From an uncultured Pseudomonadota bacterium (lineage in GTDB: Bacteria; Pseudomonadota; Gammaproteobacteria; Xanthomonadales; Wenzhouxiangellaceae), in the NCBI GenBank assembly GCA_937138395.1, contig CAKZPB010000136.1, positions 30,824 to 94,823 of the forward strand: a stretch of DNA of 64,000 nucleotides. Direction: 5' to 3'. This document shows positions 12,126 to 64,000 of this stretch, piece by piece (position 1 is the first letter of the stretch; every line of letters starts with the position of its first letter). A program made the translations under genes and the position numbers. The notes beneath the pieces were generated by a model that worked only from the letters and a program-made list of their open reading frames with translations, was not told the origin of the DNA and ran no database searches.

Positions 12126-14807
12126 ATGGATGACGCCAAGACAAGCCGACTGACCCCGGCGCGCAGGACGTTGCTGGATCGCCTGCTGGACCAGGTGCTG
12201 GATCTGGAGTCAGATCAGCGACAGGAGGCATTGACAGCCATGGCCCGGACGCACCCGCGCGTGCATGCCCACCTGGCCCGTCTGGTTGATGCGTCAACTG
12301 AACCGACCCAGTATCTCGAAACGCTGTTCAATCGCGTTGGCAGCGCTGCACTCGAGGCTGTTGAACCGGAAACCCCGAAATTACCGGCCGGCACACGAAT
12401 CGGCGACTGGCGAATTGTTGACGCCGTAGGTGCCGGCGGGATGGGTCAGGTCTATCGCGCTGAACGAGCCGATGGCTCGTTCGAGATGACCGCAGCCATC
12501 AAGTTCATCCGCACGCCGAATCATGCCCAGTTAAACGATCGCCTGGCGCTGGAACGCCAGCTGCTTGCCCGGCTCGATCATCCGAATATTGCGCGCATCA
12601 TGGATGGCGGCACGCTCGACGACGGCCAAACCTATCTGGTCATGGAATGGGTCGATGGTCAGGACTGGAGTGATTGCCATGACCGCCTGAGAACCGCTCA
12701 GCACGGTGGGCTGCAGCATTTGATCGAAGTCGCCTCGGCAGTTCAGCATGCGCACCAGCGTCGAGTCGTCCACGGCGATATCAAACCGGCCAACATCCGC
12801 ATCATGGATAACGATCGGGTCCGCCTGCTGGACTTCGGTGTTGCACGCCTGCTCAGCAACGACGGCGACGCACACGACCGCAAAGCCCTTGCACTGACAC
12901 CGGCCTATGCGGCGCCAGAGCAGCTGGCAGGTGAACCGGCGTCAACACAAAGCGATATTTTTTCGCTCGGCAAGCTGATGACCTGGTTGTTGACCGGCAC
13001 GACTGAGCCCGATCAGCGCACGGTCGAATCTGCAATCAATCGCCGGCCCCGTACAAAAGCCATCAAAGCGATTATTCAAAAAGCAACCGCAGCTGACCCT
13101 GGTCAGCGTTATGGCGCAGTGTCGGAATTGATCAATGATCTTCAGGCGCTGATTGAACAACGCCCGGTCTCGGTACAGCGCAACTCGACCATCCAGCGGC
13201 TGTTTTTGTGGGCGCGCCGCCATCGCCTGGCGGCCGCGACCGCCAGTTTGGCTGCACTGAGTATTGTTGTTGGCACGGCAGGACTGGCCTGGCAGGAGCG
13301 CATTGTTCGGGCTGAACGCGACCTCGCCCGATTCGAGGCAGAACGTGCAACGCTGATTCGAGAGCAGCTGACGCTACTGTTTCGCGAAGCCGGTGAGGAA
13401 ATTCAGCAGGAGAATGTCACCGCTCGCGACCTGCTGGCCGAAAGTGTACGCGTCGCCGAGCAACTGCACGCAGACGATCCGGAAGTCCTGGCTGCGGTTC
13501 GCGCATTTCTGGGTGAACTGTACATTGCAATGGATGACTTTGCCGCAGCCGACCCGCTGTTGACCGCGTTTGTCAACGATGCCGACGCCCGGGGTTCGCC
13601 TGATTTACTGCGTGCGGTGGTGTTGGCAGATCTGTCCCAGATTCGTCTGCGCCAGGGCGAATCTGAAGCCGCACTTGCATTGGTCGACGAGTCGCTGTCG
13701 ATCCTGGCGGACCATCCGGCCGATAACCGGGCGCGGCTTGGCGATATTCTGACCATTCGCGGGCAGGCGTTGCGGGGGCTTGGTCGATGGGACGAGGCCA
13801 TTAACAGCGCCGAACGTGGCCTGGCCATGGCACAACAGGTGGTGTCTGCACCGTCCCGTCTGCTGGCCACGATCGAGAACAATCTGGCGACCACCATGAT
13901 TTACTCCGGACGAACCATGGAAGCTTTGCCACATTTGCGCAAAGCCCTGGACAACTGGCGCGGCCTGGGGCTGGAAGACAGCTCGTCGGCCCTGACCGTG
14001 ATGACCAATCTGGCCAGCCTGTTACATCAGCAGGGCAATCTGGAGCAGGCTGAGCAGTTGTATCGTGAATCCATCGAGCGTCGCCGTCAGCGGTTTGGCG
14101 AGTCAGGCGCACTGGGTGCAGCCTACTTGAACCTGGGTACGCTGCTTACCCAGCGCTACGAATTGGAGCTGGCCGGTCAGCACGTGCAACAGGGTATCGA
14201 GCTGATCGAGCGTTTCGAAGGGGAGCAGACCATCAATCAGGCCCGCGGCTTACTGGTTCGCAGCCGTTGGCGCCTGGCTGTAGGTGATTTCATCGATGCC
14301 CACGACGATGTCAGCGAAGCCTTGCGATTGTTCGATCAGACGCTGGGCAGCGATCATCTGTTCAGTCGCGTAGCGCAGGCCCAGCAGGCCATGATTGTTG
14401 CGCAGGCGGCGCGCGATGAATTCGCCAACTTGAATCAGTTGACCAGCGCACCGGTACGCAACCAGATCGAAGACGTCATCGGGAATCTTGAGAACCTGAA
14501 ACCCCAATCCAATCGGTTTCTGGCGCAGGCTCTGTGCGAACTCGCGCGCTATGACCTGGCAGAACGTTCGCCAGAACGTGCACTGGAGGCTGCCAGTCAA
14601 TGTCTTGACCTGCGGCTGGAATTGACCAGCGAGCGCAATTGGGAAGTTGCCGAAGCGCAGACGATTGTGGCTGCGGCAGAACTGGTTATGGGATCACAAC
14701 AGGCTGAAAATGAACTGCAACAAGCACGCAGTCATCTGGTCCAGGTGCTGGGCGATCAGCATCCAAAAGTGCAATGGTGTGAACGCTGGCTTGATTTAAC
14801 CAGCTGA
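12126..14807 (+). CDS. serine/threonine protein kinase with TM segment and C-terminal TPR repeats
   Basis: GAGGMGQVYRAE glycine loop, AAIKFI lysine, HGDIKPANI catalytic loop, LLDFGVAR, then TM segment and TPRs. Confidence 0.93.
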   Translation: MDDAKTSRLTPARRTLLDRLLDQVLDLESDQRQEALTAMARTHPRVHAHLARLVDASTEPTQYLETLFNRVGSAALEAVEPETPKLPAGTRIGDWRIVDAVGAGGMGQVYRAERADGSFEMTAAIKFIRTPNHAQLNDRLALERQLLARLDHPNIARIMDGGTLDDGQTYLVMEWVDGQDWSDCHDRLRTAQHGGLQHLIEVASAVQHAHQRRVVHGDIKPANIRIMDNDRVRLLDFGVARLLSNDGDAHDRKALALTPAYAAPEQLAGEPASTQSDIFSLGKLMTWLLTGTTEPDQRTVESAINRRPRTKAIKAIIQKATAADPGQRYGAVSELINDLQALIEQRPVSVQRNSTIQRLFLWARRHRLAAATASLAALSIVVGTAGLAWQERIVRAERDLARFEAERATLIREQLTLLFREAGEEIQQENVTARDLLAESVRVAEQLHADDPEVLAAVRAFLGELYIAMDDFAAADPLLTAFVNDADARGSPDLLRAVVLADLSQIRLRQGESEAALALVDESLSILADHPADNRARLGDILTIRGQALRGLGRWDEAINSAERGLAMAQQVVSAPSRLLATIENNLATTMIYSGRTMEALPHLRKALDNWRGLGLEDSSSALTVMTNLASLLHQQGNLEQAEQLYRESIERRRQRFGESGALGAAYLNLGTLLTQRYELELAGQHVQQGIELIERFEGEQTINQARGLLVRSRWRLAVGDFIDAHDDVSEALRLFDQTLGSDHLFSRVAQAQQAMIVAQAARDEFANLNQLTSAPVRNQIEDVIGNLENLKPQSNRFLAQALCELARYDLAERSPERALEAASQCLDLRLELTSERNWEVAEAQTIVAAAELVMGSQQAENELQQARSHLVQVLGDQHPKVQWCERWLDLTS

Positions 14808-58195: not shown

Positions 58196-59070
58196 ACGCT
58201 GCAACCGGACTCGATCGGGTCGAGGTCCTGATTGTCAACTACAACGCCGGACCGTGGCTGGGACGCTGCGTCGAAACCCTGATTGCGGACGGCGGAAATG
58301 AGCTTTTGATCCACGTCGTCGACAACGCGTCCAGTGATAATAGCCTGGCATTACTGCCGCAATCAAAGCAGATTCATATCGAGCGCAACGACCGCAATCT
58401 CGGATTCGCCGGCGCAATCGAACGCTATCGTCCAGCCCTGTCGCGCGACTATCTGCTCGTGCTGAATCCGGACTCCATGATCGATCAGGACGATCTTGTG
58501 CGCCTGGTCGAGGAACTGGATCGGCACCCCCGTGCCGGACTGGTCTCAGGCAAGGTACTGAGTGAAACCGGGCTGGAACAACGTGCCAGTCGCAGACAGC
58601 TCCCAACGCCCAAGCGCATTCTGGCCGAACTTCGGTCGAGTGATCAATCTGATCAAGCGCGGATCGATTTGACCCATACCCCGGCACCCAGTGAATCGAT
58701 CGAAATCGAAGCAGTCTCGGGTGCCTGCATGCTGGTTCGTCGTACAGCGCTTGAAGCAGTCGGCGGATTCGATGCCGACTATCCGTTACATTTTGAAGAT
58801 CTGGACCTGTTCGCGCGCCTGCAGAACGCAGGCTGGACAATCCGCTGGTGTGCCGACGTTCAGATCGTCCACGTCGGCGGCGCATCGTCGAACAGCCGCC
58901 CGCTGGCCGTTCACTGGGCCAAGCATCGCGGCCTGTGGCGCTATTTGAACAAGCACTGCAAGCCCATCTGGCCCCAGTGGCAGCGGCCGATCTGGGCATT
59001 ATTGGTGGTGTTGCATGCGGCAATCATGGCGCCGCTGGTATGGCTACGGCGACGTCCGCCGAGTACATGA
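58192..59070 (+). CDS. glycosyltransferase family 2
   Basis: VEVLIVNYNAGPWLGRCVETL; DNASSDNSL; LLVLNPDSMIDQDD; FDADYPLHFEDLDLFARL. Confidence 0.92.
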   Translation: MNAATGLDRVEVLIVNYNAGPWLGRCVETLIADGGNELLIHVVDNASSDNSLALLPQSKQIHIERNDRNLGFAGAIERYRPALSRDYLLVLNPDSMIDQDDLVRLVEELDRHPRAGLVSGKVLSETGLEQRASRRQLPTPKRILAELRSSDQSDQARIDLTHTPAPSESIEIEAVSGACMLVRRTALEAVGGFDADYPLHFEDLDLFARLQNAGWTIRWCADVQIVHVGGASSNSRPLAVHWAKHRGLWRYLNKHCKPIWPQWQRPIWALLVVLHAAIMAPLVWLRRRPPST

Positions 59071-59921
59071 ATTCAATCGCCACGCACGGCCATACCCTTC
59101 CTCCGGTCCTGGTTCTTGGCGCCACGGGTCAGGTCGGGCAGGCCCTGATTCCTTTGCTCATTGAAGGTGGTCATGCCGTACTGGCGGTTTCCCGCCAAGT
59201 CCCTGTGGAGCATCGCGCCAACGTAATCTGGATTCAGCAAGACTTGTCGAGTGAACCAATCCGCAGTCAGACCCAAACATTGCTGAGCGTGGGACCGTTG
59301 TCGCTGGCACTGCGACAGGTCCGGGCTACACCGGCAGTACGGAGAGTCATTGCGCTCAGTTCAGCCAGTGTGCTGTTCAAGCACAATTCGAAGGATCGCA
59401 ACGAACGCGCCATGATTCAAACGCTGCTGGATAGCGAGCAGCAACTCGAACGACTGGCCGAGCAACGCGGCATCGATCTGACCCTGCTGCGCCCGACGCT
59501 GATCTATGGCGGTGACGACGCCAATATTTCAGTCATTCGCAAGCTGGTAAAAACCCGGCGCTGGCTGCCCTGTGCAGGGAATGGTTTACGTCAACCCGCA
59601 CATGTCGAGGACCTTGCAGACCTGATCGTTTGCCTGATACCAAGGACCGGCTTCGGCCAGGAATGCTTCGAGCTGGGTGGCGGTGAAGCCCTCGGCTACC
59701 GTGACATGATCCAGCGCATCGCGCAAAGTGAACAACAATCCGTGCGCCTGCTGCGACTGCCGCCCTGGTTGATAACACCGGGCTTGCGACTGGCCCACAT
59801 GAGCGGGCGTTTTCAATCCATCAGGCCGGCCATGATCGCGCGCCAGCGAGAGGATCTGGACGTCGACGACACACTGGCTCGACAGCAGCTGAACTGGCAA
59901 CCCCGGCCATTCGAGCCCTGA
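59067..59921 (+). CDS. NAD(P)-dependent epimerase/dehydratase-like protein
   Basis: VLVLGATGQVGQALIPLLIEGGH Rossmann motif; LRPTLIYGGDDANISVI; ATGA overlap with the GT2 gene. Confidence 0.85.
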   Translation: MNSIATHGHTLPPVLVLGATGQVGQALIPLLIEGGHAVLAVSRQVPVEHRANVIWIQQDLSSEPIRSQTQTLLSVGPLSLALRQVRATPAVRRVIALSSASVLFKHNSKDRNERAMIQTLLDSEQQLERLAEQRGIDLTLLRPTLIYGGDDANISVIRKLVKTRRWLPCAGNGLRQPAHVEDLADLIVCLIPRTGFGQECFELGGGEALGYRDMIQRIAQSEQQSVRLLRLPPWLITPGLRLAHMSGRFQSIRPAMIARQREDLDVDDTLARQQLNWQPRPFEP

Positions 59922-60085: not shown

Positions 60086-60102
60086 CACAGACATCCCCTG
60101 TG
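60086..60102. promoter_or_regulatory. inverted repeat CACAG-N7-CTGTG, candidate activator site
   Basis: About 40 bp upstream of the sigma-54 -24 element. Confidence 0.3.
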
Positions 60103-60143
60103 ACCATTTTCCATAAGTACTTGTTTATCAGAGGTTTTTTATC

Positions 60144-60159
60144 TGGCACGTCGATTGCA
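60144..60159 (+). promoter_or_regulatory. sigma-54 promoter (-24/-12)
   Basis: TGGCAC-GTCGA-TTGCA, full match to TGGCAC-N5-TTGCW, 32 bp upstream of an ATG. Confidence 0.8.
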
Positions 60160-60191
60160 ATTGGGGACTATCACATACTGAGGGCAAACCA

Positions 60192-60461
60192 ATGAACCAT
60201 TCACTCAAACCATGCCGAAGATGCTGGCTCATCATTTTCTTATTGATTTTGCTGCCGACTATCGGGACTGCGCAGACCCTGTTGATGGATCGCGCCGGCC
60301 TTTCATCGATTTTTCCTGAAGACATTGATGACAAGCGCTATGGAGTGTCACCGCTCAGCGCCTCGAATAATCCTTACCGGGAATCACAGGTTGTCCAGTC
60401 AGGCATCAACCCTCCCGCTGACATTGAACGGTTCAACACTCCATGGAGCCAAATCCGATGA
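60192..60461 (+). CDS. small exported hypothetical protein (89 aa)
   Basis: Signal peptide CWLIIFLLILLPTIGTAQ; upstream sigma-54 promoter; stop overlaps next start (ATGA). Confidence 0.75.
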   Translation: MNHSLKPCRRCWLIIFLLILLPTIGTAQTLLMDRAGLSSIFPEDIDDKRYGVSPLSASNNPYRESQVVQSGINPPADIERFNTPWSQIR

Positions 60462-63319
60462 CATTTCCGAAGCTTGAACTGAACCAAACGGTCCTGGCTT
60501 GCATGCTGACTGGCGGCGTATTCCTCATGGCATGGTCTTCGGTGTGCGAGGCAGGCAACCCCATCACAGTCAACACCAATTCCGGCGCCCCTTTCGTGCC
60601 CGGCAATAACGATGGACTGTGCTCACTGGCTGAAGCCATCAATAATGCGAACGAAGCTGGCAGTACCGCAATCACTACATTTTCACCCGACTGCCCGATT
60701 CCAGGAGCAACGCCCCCATTATTGACCCCGATCGACATCTTCATTCAAAGTGGCATCGGCGATATCAATCTGGACGGATTGCTAACGATTAATTCTCCAG
60801 CGAGGCTGATCGGCCCATCACCTTCCGACAAAGCCAGAATAACAACCAGCTCCACTGAAGGAATATTAGTAATAGATCAGACCAATATCGCGCAACTCAA
60901 CGCCGATATCTGGGAGCTGAGAAACCTTGAATTCTTTGGGTCACATAAAGAAGGTAACGATCCCGGTAATTTCACCTGTCCGGTTCGCGGTGGTGCAGTA
61001 TGCGCTAGGCTTGGCAAAACAAATGCGCTACTGTCAATCATCGACAGCGAGTTCAAGGACAACAGCGTCACCCCGGATGCAGGCGGCAGTTCCTATGGCG
61101 GCGGCTTGGCTGTTTACGGCAGACCTGACATTTCTGGAGAGCGCCTGATTATCGAAAACAGCCACTTCGAGGGGAACAGTGGCGTGGATTTTGGTGGCGC
61201 GGCAGACATTAAATGGCTCGGTGTCAACATTCAAGATTCGCATTTCGAAAACAACGACGCGCAAAGAGGAGGCGGAATTAACGCTGGCGACAACGCGTCA
61301 TTTAGCATTAACCGGTCTACGTTTTTTGGAAACAATGCAACGTCAGGCTTTGGCGGTGCGCTGGCATTGGAAGATTTCACCACTGCGGTCATCACCAACT
61401 CTATTTTCGAGTTGAACAGCGGCATCAACTTCAGCGGTACAAGCGACTTCCAGGGTCATGCACTCCGTGTTGCCGGCACGTCTTCGGAATCCAATAACCT
61501 TTTGTTGCTTAATTCCGAGTTCAAAGCCAACCAGACTGGCGCTCTTCGCTTGTTGAATGGTGTGCAAGCGACGATCGCCTCTACGACCATGCATGACAAC
61601 CGCGTGCGCGCCAGTGCTGGAGGCATTGTCTCTGTAAACGACTCAGTATTGGACATGTTCAACTCAAGTATCGTCGACAATGTTGGCCTTGAAGACGCTC
61701 CAGCGCTTCCAGTTGCGGGAATCCAAGTCCAGAGCGGCACGCTGAATCTGGAGCATGTAACGATCAGTCAAAACCAGGGCGCTGGATCAAATTCGGTGGG
61801 TGGTCTTCACCTGATCGACAACTCGACTGCAGATCTGAGCGCAACCCTGATTGCTGACAACTTCGCGCTGACCAACGGGAACGTGCTTGTAGAAGCAGGC
61901 TCGGTGCTCAACGTTCACTCGTCGCAGTTTGGTGACAGCGCAGCAGAGATCAACGGTAGCAATACGGCAAATGTATTCAACAATATCAGCGGTCTGGATT
62001 CTGTGCAGGATATGGGTTGCACGGTACTGGCTGGAGCTACCGCAAACCTTCGCTGCGTACCACTGGCACCGCTGACTGCCAGCGCAGTGGCAGTTGATCG
62101 CTCGGACCCGTCGACAACACTGACCAGCGATCAGCGGGGTTCATTGTTCACGCGGGCAACGGGAGGCGGAAATCTTCCCGATATCGGCGCGCATGAGCTG
62201 CAGCCGCCAATTATTTCTATCGAACCGAACACGATCACCGCTCGCAATGAGGGCAACAGCGGCACAACACCGTTTCCGTTTACGCTGCTGAGAAATGGCG
62301 ATACGCGAAACATTTCCTTTGCCAATTGGAACGTGTTAGGCGAAGGGCCAACGCCCGCGAACATAGCGGATTTCAGCAGCACCAGCGGCAGCGCGTTTTT
62401 TGATGTTGGTGCAAATTCGACCGACGTCACCATCAATGTCATCGGTGATACCGCGTCTGAGCCCGACGAAGGCTTCCGGCTCGCGCTGGCCGGATTGACC
62501 AATGGTCAGCCCGGCGCAGTCTTTGCCAAATCAGCGACGATCCTGAACGACGATGCACTGCTACCTGTAGCCATTGTTTCAATTGAGCCCATCCTGATTG
62601 ACCTCGTGGAGGGAAATTTCATCATCGGCTCGGTGCAGACGCTACGCGTGACGCGTAGCCAATTACTTGGTGGACTCTGCAGTTTTCAAGCCGAACTCGC
62701 TGCCTCCGGCGGAAACGGGGTCAACAGCGATGACTTTCTGAACTGGAACCTGGGCACGCAGACCTTCGTGATGCAGCCCGGTGATGAGTTCATCGATATT
62801 GAACTTCAAGTGACAGGCGATGGGCTGTTCGAAGGGGATGAAGGCTATCGAATGGGGTTGATCAATCCATCCGGTTGTGTCGTCAACAACAATGCATCTG
62901 CAGTTGAAGGTGTGATCATCGATGACGAAAGCCAGATGAGTATCGATGCGATTACGATTGCAGGACCCGAGGGCAATAGCGGCAGCACTGCGTTCACCTT
63001 TGAAATCAGTCGCACGGGCTTTATTCAGGCACCTGCAAGCGTCAACTGGGCCGTGGTTGGCAGTGGTAGCAATCCAGCAACTGCCGACGATTTTGTCGGC
63101 GGCGTGCTGCCCTCCGGCGGAGTCGGCTTCCCACCCGGCGTGATCAGCATTCAAATTACGATCCAGGTCGCAGGCGATATTGAAGGTGAGTTCGATGAAC
63201 AGTTCACTGTCCAACTGAGTTCACCTACAGGCGGGGAAATTCTGAATGGCACAGCGAACTCGACAATCATCAATGACGACGCAAGCGACCTGTTGTTTGC
63301 GGATAGCTTCGAACAATAA
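60458..63319 (+). CDS. secreted right-handed beta-helix protein with Calx-beta-like domains and C-terminal LLFADSFEQ
   Basis: Signal peptide; DGLCSLAEAINNANEAG; repetitive NNSxFExNSG strands; three Calx-beta-like units (…GD…E.DE.F…L). Confidence 0.85.
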   Translation: MTFPKLELNQTVLACMLTGGVFLMAWSSVCEAGNPITVNTNSGAPFVPGNNDGLCSLAEAINNANEAGSTAITTFSPDCPIPGATPPLLTPIDIFIQSGIGDINLDGLLTINSPARLIGPSPSDKARITTSSTEGILVIDQTNIAQLNADIWELRNLEFFGSHKEGNDPGNFTCPVRGGAVCARLGKTNALLSIIDSEFKDNSVTPDAGGSSYGGGLAVYGRPDISGERLIIENSHFEGNSGVDFGGAADIKWLGVNIQDSHFENNDAQRGGGINAGDNASFSINRSTFFGNNATSGFGGALALEDFTTAVITNSIFELNSGINFSGTSDFQGHALRVAGTSSESNNLLLLNSEFKANQTGALRLLNGVQATIASTTMHDNRVRASAGGIVSVNDSVLDMFNSSIVDNVGLEDAPALPVAGIQVQSGTLNLEHVTISQNQGAGSNSVGGLHLIDNSTADLSATLIADNFALTNGNVLVEAGSVLNVHSSQFGDSAAEINGSNTANVFNNISGLDSVQDMGCTVLAGATANLRCVPLAPLTASAVAVDRSDPSTTLTSDQRGSLFTRATGGGNLPDIGAHELQPPIISIEPNTITARNEGNSGTTPFPFTLLRNGDTRNISFANWNVLGEGPTPANIADFSSTSGSAFFDVGANSTDVTINVIGDTASEPDEGFRLALAGLTNGQPGAVFAKSATILNDDALLPVAIVSIEPILIDLVEGNFIIGSVQTLRVTRSQLLGGLCSFQAELAASGGNGVNSDDFLNWNLGTQTFVMQPGDEFIDIELQVTGDGLFEGDEGYRMGLINPSGCVVNNNASAVEGVIIDDESQMSIDAITIAGPEGNSGSTAFTFEISRTGFIQAPASVNWAVVGSGSNPATADDFVGGVLPSGGVGFPPGVISIQITIQVAGDIEGEFDEQFTVQLSSPTGGEILNGTANSTIINDDASDLLFADSFEQ

Positions 63320-63331
63320 CGTCTGTTTACA

Positions 63332-64000
63332 TCAATCGCAATAGCTTGACAGTAGGTGAAAAGCCGCCCGATACAGGGCGGTTTTTTTCATCTCGTTTGC
63401 CGGATCGATTTGGTCCCAAGCGTGTTTCGCGGCGATGCAATCCGTTTGATAAATACGTTGCTGGATCTGCAAAAGCGCGATCGAATCAGCATTGGCTCCG
63501 CCTGCGCTTAACTGCTCAATGCCGAGCTCGACTTCTTCAGTCGATCGGTCGGCAAGCGCCATCTGCGTTTGCAGCTCGAGCATCCGCAAATGTCGAGCAT
63601 GTCCTTCAGGATAGGTTTCGTTGATCACGGCACGGGCTTCATCCAATGTGGTCTGCGCTTGAGCCAGGTTGCCAGCCAGAAACTGATTGGCAGCAGACTC
63701 CAATGCAATTCGAACGTGAAAACCAGGCTCGTCGGCCAGTAATTCAAGGGCCCGATCAAAGTGGGCCTGAGCGTCCTCAAGATTGCCCATACGCTGCAGG
63801 GTTTGTGCCTGAAATCCTGTGATCAGACCAACCCAGGGGTGATCTTTGCCATAGTGAAGTCGAGTCAATCGCAATGCATCCGCGTGAGCTTCCATGGCTT
63901 CGCTCAGAAACCCCTGTTCAGAACGGCGGTTGGCCAGATTGCTCCAGCTGGTCGCCAGTCGAGGGTCATCCGGGCCAAGCAGTTGAACAAAATCAGTGGT
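63332..64000 (-). CDS. TPR protein, truncated by the window edge (possibly C-terminal half of a second TPR Ser/Thr kinase)
   Basis: Frame stays open from the edge (…TDFVQLLGPDDPRLATSWSNLANRRSEQGFLSEAMEAHADALRLTRLHYGKDHPWVGLITG…), TPR pattern. Confidence 0.75.
   Translation of the reverse strand, partial: TTDFVQLLGPDDPRLATSWSNLANRRSEQGFLSEAMEAHADALRLTRLHYGKDHPWVGLITGFQAQTLQRMGNLEDAQAHFDRALELLADEPGFHVRIALESAANQFLAGNLAQAQTTLDEARAVINETYPEGHARHLRMLELQTQMALADRSTEEVELGIEQLSAGGANADSIALLQIQQRIYQTDCIAAKHAWDQIDPANEMKKTALYRAAFHLLSSYCD
63359..63388 (+). terminator. Rho-independent terminator after the Calx-beta gene
   Basis: CCGCCC-GATACA-GGGCGG followed by TTTTTTT. Confidence 0.8.

Follow-up and report, generated by a model that had tools for sequence, protein, structure and literature searches.

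Short C-terminal tags have repeatedly exposed new protein-sorting machines, as was the case for LPXTG, PEP-CTERM, GlyGly-CTERM, MYXO-CTERM and T9SS. PEP-CTERM proteins are under sigma-54 control through PrsK/PrsR (PMC1569441), and pepA is RpoN-dependent (PMC9850573). We analysed a 64,000-nucleotide stretch of DNA (the window) from an uncultured bacterium of the Wenzhouxiangellaceae, at the right end of which a comparable arrangement probably starts. As in the PrsK/PrsR case, a sigma-54 -24/-12 site precedes exported proteins having a common short C-terminal signal, and a dedicated kinase is accompanied by a Fis-family sigma-54 activator. However, the tag carries neither the PEP motif nor the hydrophobic span and basic end of PEP-CTERM, the kinase is a Ser/Thr kinase whereas PrsK is a His kinase, and the activator has an FHA domain where PrsR has a receiver domain. 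Indeed, the activator, encoded on contig C87, scored 262.8 bits with the PrsR model TIGR02915, as compared to a cut-off of 502.6. Because the defining features of that family fail, we did not file the locus under PEP-CTERM/PrsKR; by comparison of the parts, the cassette would be analogous to this system in its working without being a member of it.

Myxococcus xanthus has FHA-domain enhancer-binding proteins (Jelsbak 2005, cited in PMC6971385). These proteins share with the activator studied here the combination of an FHA domain, an AAA sigma-54 domain and a Fis-type HTH; the present locus appears to differ by the adjacent kinase, the tagged exported operon and the G[V/A]ATGV loop of its activator.

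The main product of the operon is an exported protein of 953 aa (60458-63319, + strand), in which Pfam, profile searches, AlphaFold2 and Foldseek delineate, in this order, a right-handed beta-helix, Calx-beta domains and the C-terminal tag. Calx-beta (PF03160) was detected with E=1.9e-14 and 54.1 bits, the gathering score being 27. In the AlphaFold2 model, the beta-helix covers about residues 90-490 (60725-61927, + strand) with pLDDT values mostly of 70-90. It is followed by three beta-sandwich units of lower confidence, making up the Calx-beta region (about residues 585-921; 62210-63220, + strand). Because the overall mean pLDDT is 59, the model supports the domain order and not the structural detail. 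Using this model, Foldseek gave matches to the calcium-binding domains of CALX/NCX and to the beta-helices of AlgG/AlgE4. In contrast with the NCX domains, those found here belong to a secreted bacterial protein, and calcium binding is putative. The beta-helix part is also similar, by profile, to Rhombotarget A of the GlyGly-CTERM-rhombosortase system (PMC3237569; PDB 9cdu, E=1.8e-4). However, the 953-aa protein ends with LFADSFEQ in place of a GlyGly-CTERM, and its tag shows none of the Gly-rich motif, hydrophobic span and basic residues of the latter. With the choice-of-anchor Q model NF041518, the protein reached 20.4 bits and its ortholog from another genus 24.1 bits, below the cut-off of 25. 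An exported beta-helix/Calx-beta protein had been announced by an earlier sequence-only reading of the window; the 953-aa ORF, the Pfam score and the AlphaFold2 beta-helix bear this out, and the envelope or surface programme proposed at the same time follows from such a product. The GC contents of the large gene at the three codon positions (0.55/0.47/0.58, versus 0.65/0.43/0.67 for all genes of the window) are consistent with acquisition of the cassette. A terminator-like GC stem with a T run is located 3′ of the large gene, at 63363-63389, where it overlaps the convergent TPR/kinase gene at its 3′ end.

The sequence-only reading had also placed a match to the sigma-54 -24/-12 consensus about 32 bp before an ATG. 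The match is there and is exact: CTGGCACGTCGATTGCA occupies positions 60144-60159 (+ strand), 32 nt 5′ of the ATG at 60192, and its GG (-24) and GC (-12) elements have the required spacing and lie ahead of a start codon. The genome contains a single rpoN gene, together with activators. Occurrences of TGGCACG-N4-TTGCW were counted in the 2.84-Mb genome. Four perfect matches were obtained, versus 0/1 for the backward control; two are intragenic, one precedes a pilin-like gene and the last is 60144-60159. Allowing one mismatch gave 35 matches versus 28 for the control, which is background. Consequently, weight was put only on the perfect intergenic match. The pilin-like gene (type IV; L165:4874-5404, site TTGGCACGAGTTTTGCA) provides a useful internal control, pilin-like genes being a class known for sigma-54 dependence. 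An inverted repeat, CACAG-N7-CTGTG, does exist upstream, at 60086-60102, but when the 200 bp were shuffled, one or more repeats of this type arose in 74% of cases. Its proposed role as an activator-binding site was thus rejected as being at chance level. No activator-binding site common to the cassettes was found.

The window ends where its contig (C136) ends, cutting a minus-strand TPR gene of which a C-terminal fragment of 222 aa remains (63332-64000; Pfam). The sequence-only reading had mentioned neither this cut gene nor the C-terminal tag of the large protein. On the other side of the operon, an NAD-dependent epimerase-like gene (58935-59921, + strand; Pfam Epimerase, 5.2e-11) forms the left flank of the insertion. 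As seen by tblastn, the methyltransferase-glycosyltransferase-epimerase cluster of the window faces EttA in five relatives (G003, G004, G006, G009 and G015), with at most one small gene in between. On C87, the gene adjacent to EttA is that of the FHA activator, followed by a Ser/Thr kinase gene cut at the contig end; the genome gives 16 Pkinase matches, and no other full kinase among them is cut off. No sequence overlap joining C136 and C87 was found, and the TPR fragment showed no significant match to the TPR parts of related kinases. From the gene order around the epimerase cluster and EttA in the five relatives, and from the position of EttA next to the FHA activator, we infer that C87 almost certainly continues the window and that the TPR fragment belongs to the C87 kinase. 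With this adjacency, the cassette would be an insertion between the epimerase gene and EttA. Another Ser/Thr kinase domain is encoded within the window, at 12414-13085.

Further evidence came from relatives. The ortholog of the 953-aa protein in another genus (G015; 42% identity over residues 466-952) is encoded by the last gene of its operon, the first gene of which is itself tagged. A perfect sigma-54 site, CTGGCACGTGTCTTGCT, is found 40 nt before the start of this first gene, and the operon is divergent from the genes of an FHA-domain sigma-54 activator and of a Ser/Thr kinase. This gives independent support to the assignment of 60144-60159 (TGGCACGTCGATTGCA) as a sigma-54 promoter. It also agrees with the earlier suggestion of a sigma-54-controlled locus in need of an enhancer-binding protein; a dedicated activator is supported as well, a like activator-kinase pair adjoining the window by synteny. 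The orientation of the pair with respect to the operon is convergent here and divergent in G015. According to Pfam, the FHA activators of C87 and of the relatives contain FHA, Sigma54_activat and HTH_8 domains. The C87 activator groups with the clade of the G015 activator (support 0.998), and the two proteins have just 37% identity.

The arrangement recurs in the same genome. A second cassette (L162, contig C10 14000-24608) comprises a kinase, an FHA activator, a divergent, near-perfect sigma-54 site and an operon of tagged beta-helix and small tagged proteins. Overall, 17 loci were compared, nearly all picked solely by the presence of an FHA activator, the window being one of them. Intergenic sigma-54 sites scoring at least 20/22 numbered 15, versus 0 for the mirrored consensus, with site weights set by hand from the published consensus in place of a fitted matrix, and with gene calls that are rough in GC-rich loci. 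The perfect G015 site, hidden by a wrong gene call, comes in addition to these 15. Tagged ORFs in the same loci number 20 (one of them enters twice, as it lies in loci that overlap), whereas the mirrored motif gave 0; tagged genes are present in several of the loci, not in all. A neighbour gene in G040 (C318; L080 4064-5740) proved, on comparison with the others, not to be an FHA activator. A scan of GTDB contigs with the FHA-activator alignment brought up ordinary activators in overwhelming number.

We propose, with a probability of about two in three, that the window ends within an inserted, self-contained cassette, of which it holds the left half, and in which a sigma-54 promoter, an operon, a kinase-TPR protein and an FHA activator would together switch on a tagged surface protein. 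The promoter would be followed by an 89-aa ORF and by the gene of the 953-aa surface protein, and then, on the opposite strand, by the Ser/Thr kinase-TPR and FHA activator genes, the whole lying between the NAD-epimerase gene and EttA. Directly observed are the promoter sequence, the genes with their domain content, the tag family, the synteny and the recurrence of the arrangement in relatives; the mechanism builds on these. The membrane kinase may sense some signal and phosphorylate itself or a partner, and the FHA domain of the activator would read the phospho-threonine. The activator hexamer would then open the sigma-54 polymerase at 60144, leading to expression of the operon. The 953-aa product would be exported by Sec, and its sorting to, or retention at, the surface would be aided by the C-terminal [LIV]FxD[G/S]FE tag.

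Several observations speak against this proposal: the missing overlap of C136 and C87, the TPR fragment without a match in the related kinases, the different orientation of the pair in G015, the low identity of the two activators and the failure to find a common activator-binding site. The main weakness of the mechanism, as judged from the activator sequences, is the loop corresponding to GAFTGA. All FHA activators of the group have G[V/A]ATGV (GVATGV or GAATGV; for example L163:1429-3108 and L162:3417-5090), whereas the other activators sampled have GA[F/Y][T/S]GA or close. The FHA proteins could therefore be regulators acting on sigma-70 promoters, as are VpsR and TyrR, with the -24/-12 site served by another activator, such as PilR; further activators are indeed encoded in the genome. 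Changes of the Phe or Thr of GAFTGA usually abolish activation (PMC3162934). However, the intergenic sigma-54 sites cluster at exactly these genes, the ortholog operon included, and DVUA0100, which carries GVATGV, has been predicted and argued to be still functional in activation (PMC4641369). We thus hold a sigma-70 role of the FHA proteins to be unlikely. An even less probable view is that the match at 60144 is coincidental and that a sigma-70 promoter drives the operon. The background level of one-mismatch matches in the genome would be in line with a coincidence, but the match is perfect, lies at the right distance, and has a perfect counterpart in the ortholog operon and a near-perfect one in the C10 cassette, which makes this view very hard to sustain.

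Within the cassette as we propose it, the role of the first ORF can be read in two ways. This ORF (60192-60461, + strand; 89 aa) has a GAGGG ribosome site 5′ of its ATG. Its stop overlaps the start of the large gene in an ATGA at 60458-60461 (+ strand), with GGAG nine bases before, at 60445-60448. Both the overlap and the signal-peptide-like start had been pointed out from the sequence and are indeed present. The codon usage of the ORF is poor (0.041 bits/codon, below 99.2% of gene windows). Among 66 non-gene ORFs having a ribosome site, a crude purpose-written script found a signal-peptide-like start in just three, namely in this ORF and in two that are real genes. As such starts are rare among non-gene ORFs, the 89-aa ORF is probably translated despite its codon usage. 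Homologs of the protein were searched for in 151 genomes (among them five further ones of the genus), in GTDB contigs, in viral contigs and in plasmids, and none was found. The best match, a TPR protein of G011 (E=0.0057, one genome of 151), was put down to chance. The ORF is also absent beside the G015 ortholog of the large protein, so that the conservation looked for did not materialise. AlphaFold2 gave a signal helix alone, with no further fold (pLDDT 61). Related cassettes often hold a small tagged protein (about 86-106 aa), but the 89-aa protein is of another kind and does not belong to this recurrent family. The suggestion that it serves the 953-aa protein as a chaperone, partner or processing factor, in a two-protein system, finds an echo in the shared operon, the ATGA coupling and the signal-peptide-like start; set against the orphan status, the absence next to the ortholog and the lack of a fold, it is most doubtful. 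It is quite possible, though short of an even chance, that the ORF represents an exported gene that is either young or in decay, or chiefly a translated leader coupling translation of the large gene, with no partner function. The near-zero codon bias and the variation of the first gene among cassettes point in this direction, in addition to the orphan status, while the clean signal-peptide-like start does not. A young or decaying gene, possibly serving mainly for translational coupling, is compatible with the cassette explanation.

The small tagged proteins of related cassettes form a recurrent family of about 70-132 aa, encoded in or near FHA cassettes (L162:8565-8861, L234, L235, L242, L080, L237, L243), and 4-nt overlaps with neighbouring genes are common among them.

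The 953-aa protein ends with NDDASDLLFADSFEQ, that is ...LLFADSFEQ, the tag LFADSFEQ being encoded at 63293-63316 (+ strand). Motif counts near stops of the same genome gave 68 FxDxFE matches versus 7 for the backward control, and 30 versus 0 for the stricter DG form. Collection of the own-genome loci led to 33 distinct tagged ORFs, 63293-63316 included (others being for example in L153, L156 and L157). Across the 29 ORFs of at least 200 codons, the tag reads [LIV, rarely M or F]-F-x-D-[G/S]-F-E followed by 0-6 residues, with an invariant final E though D was permitted. The N-termini inspected among the tagged proteins are mostly signal peptides. In a survey of 150 relatives, most families of the order proved rich in the tag, whereas other families almost lacked it; genus g6 has DRF instead of DGF. 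Sigma-54 promoters common to all tagged genes were considered and rejected, since most tagged genes scanned have none. An ExeM/NucH extracellular nuclease (L153:261-2915, - strand) ends with FADGFE; in other genera this family uses GlyGly-CTERM. The tag is also carried by beta-helix proteins having CSLREA or choice-of-anchor-like parts. By analogy, its presence on these proteins and on the nuclease looks like the behaviour of swapped sorting signals. No NCBIfam model matched the tagged C-termini of the proteins scanned, and no paper describing a FADGFE-type tag was found, so that the tag is apparently undescribed.

We tentatively suggest, at somewhat less than even odds, that [LIV]FxD[G/S/R]FE-(0-7 aa)-COOH is an undescribed sorting or retention signal, present on tens of exported proteins in each genome and in several families of the order, and that the Ser/Thr-kinase, FHA-activator and sigma-54 cassette with its G[V/A]ATGV loop is the dedicated switch for some of them, making up a PEP-CTERM/PrsKR analogue of separate evolution. 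This possible new sorting tag is the most interesting lead of the locus. Its occurrence on 33 proteins of one genome, its presence or absence by family and the lack of an NCBIfam match among the proteins scanned make a direct search for its machinery feasible. In addition, the cassette constitutes a natural test of sigma-54 activators devoid of the GAFTGA phenylalanine, and it would offer a phospho-threonine route into the sigma-54 transcription of surface proteins.
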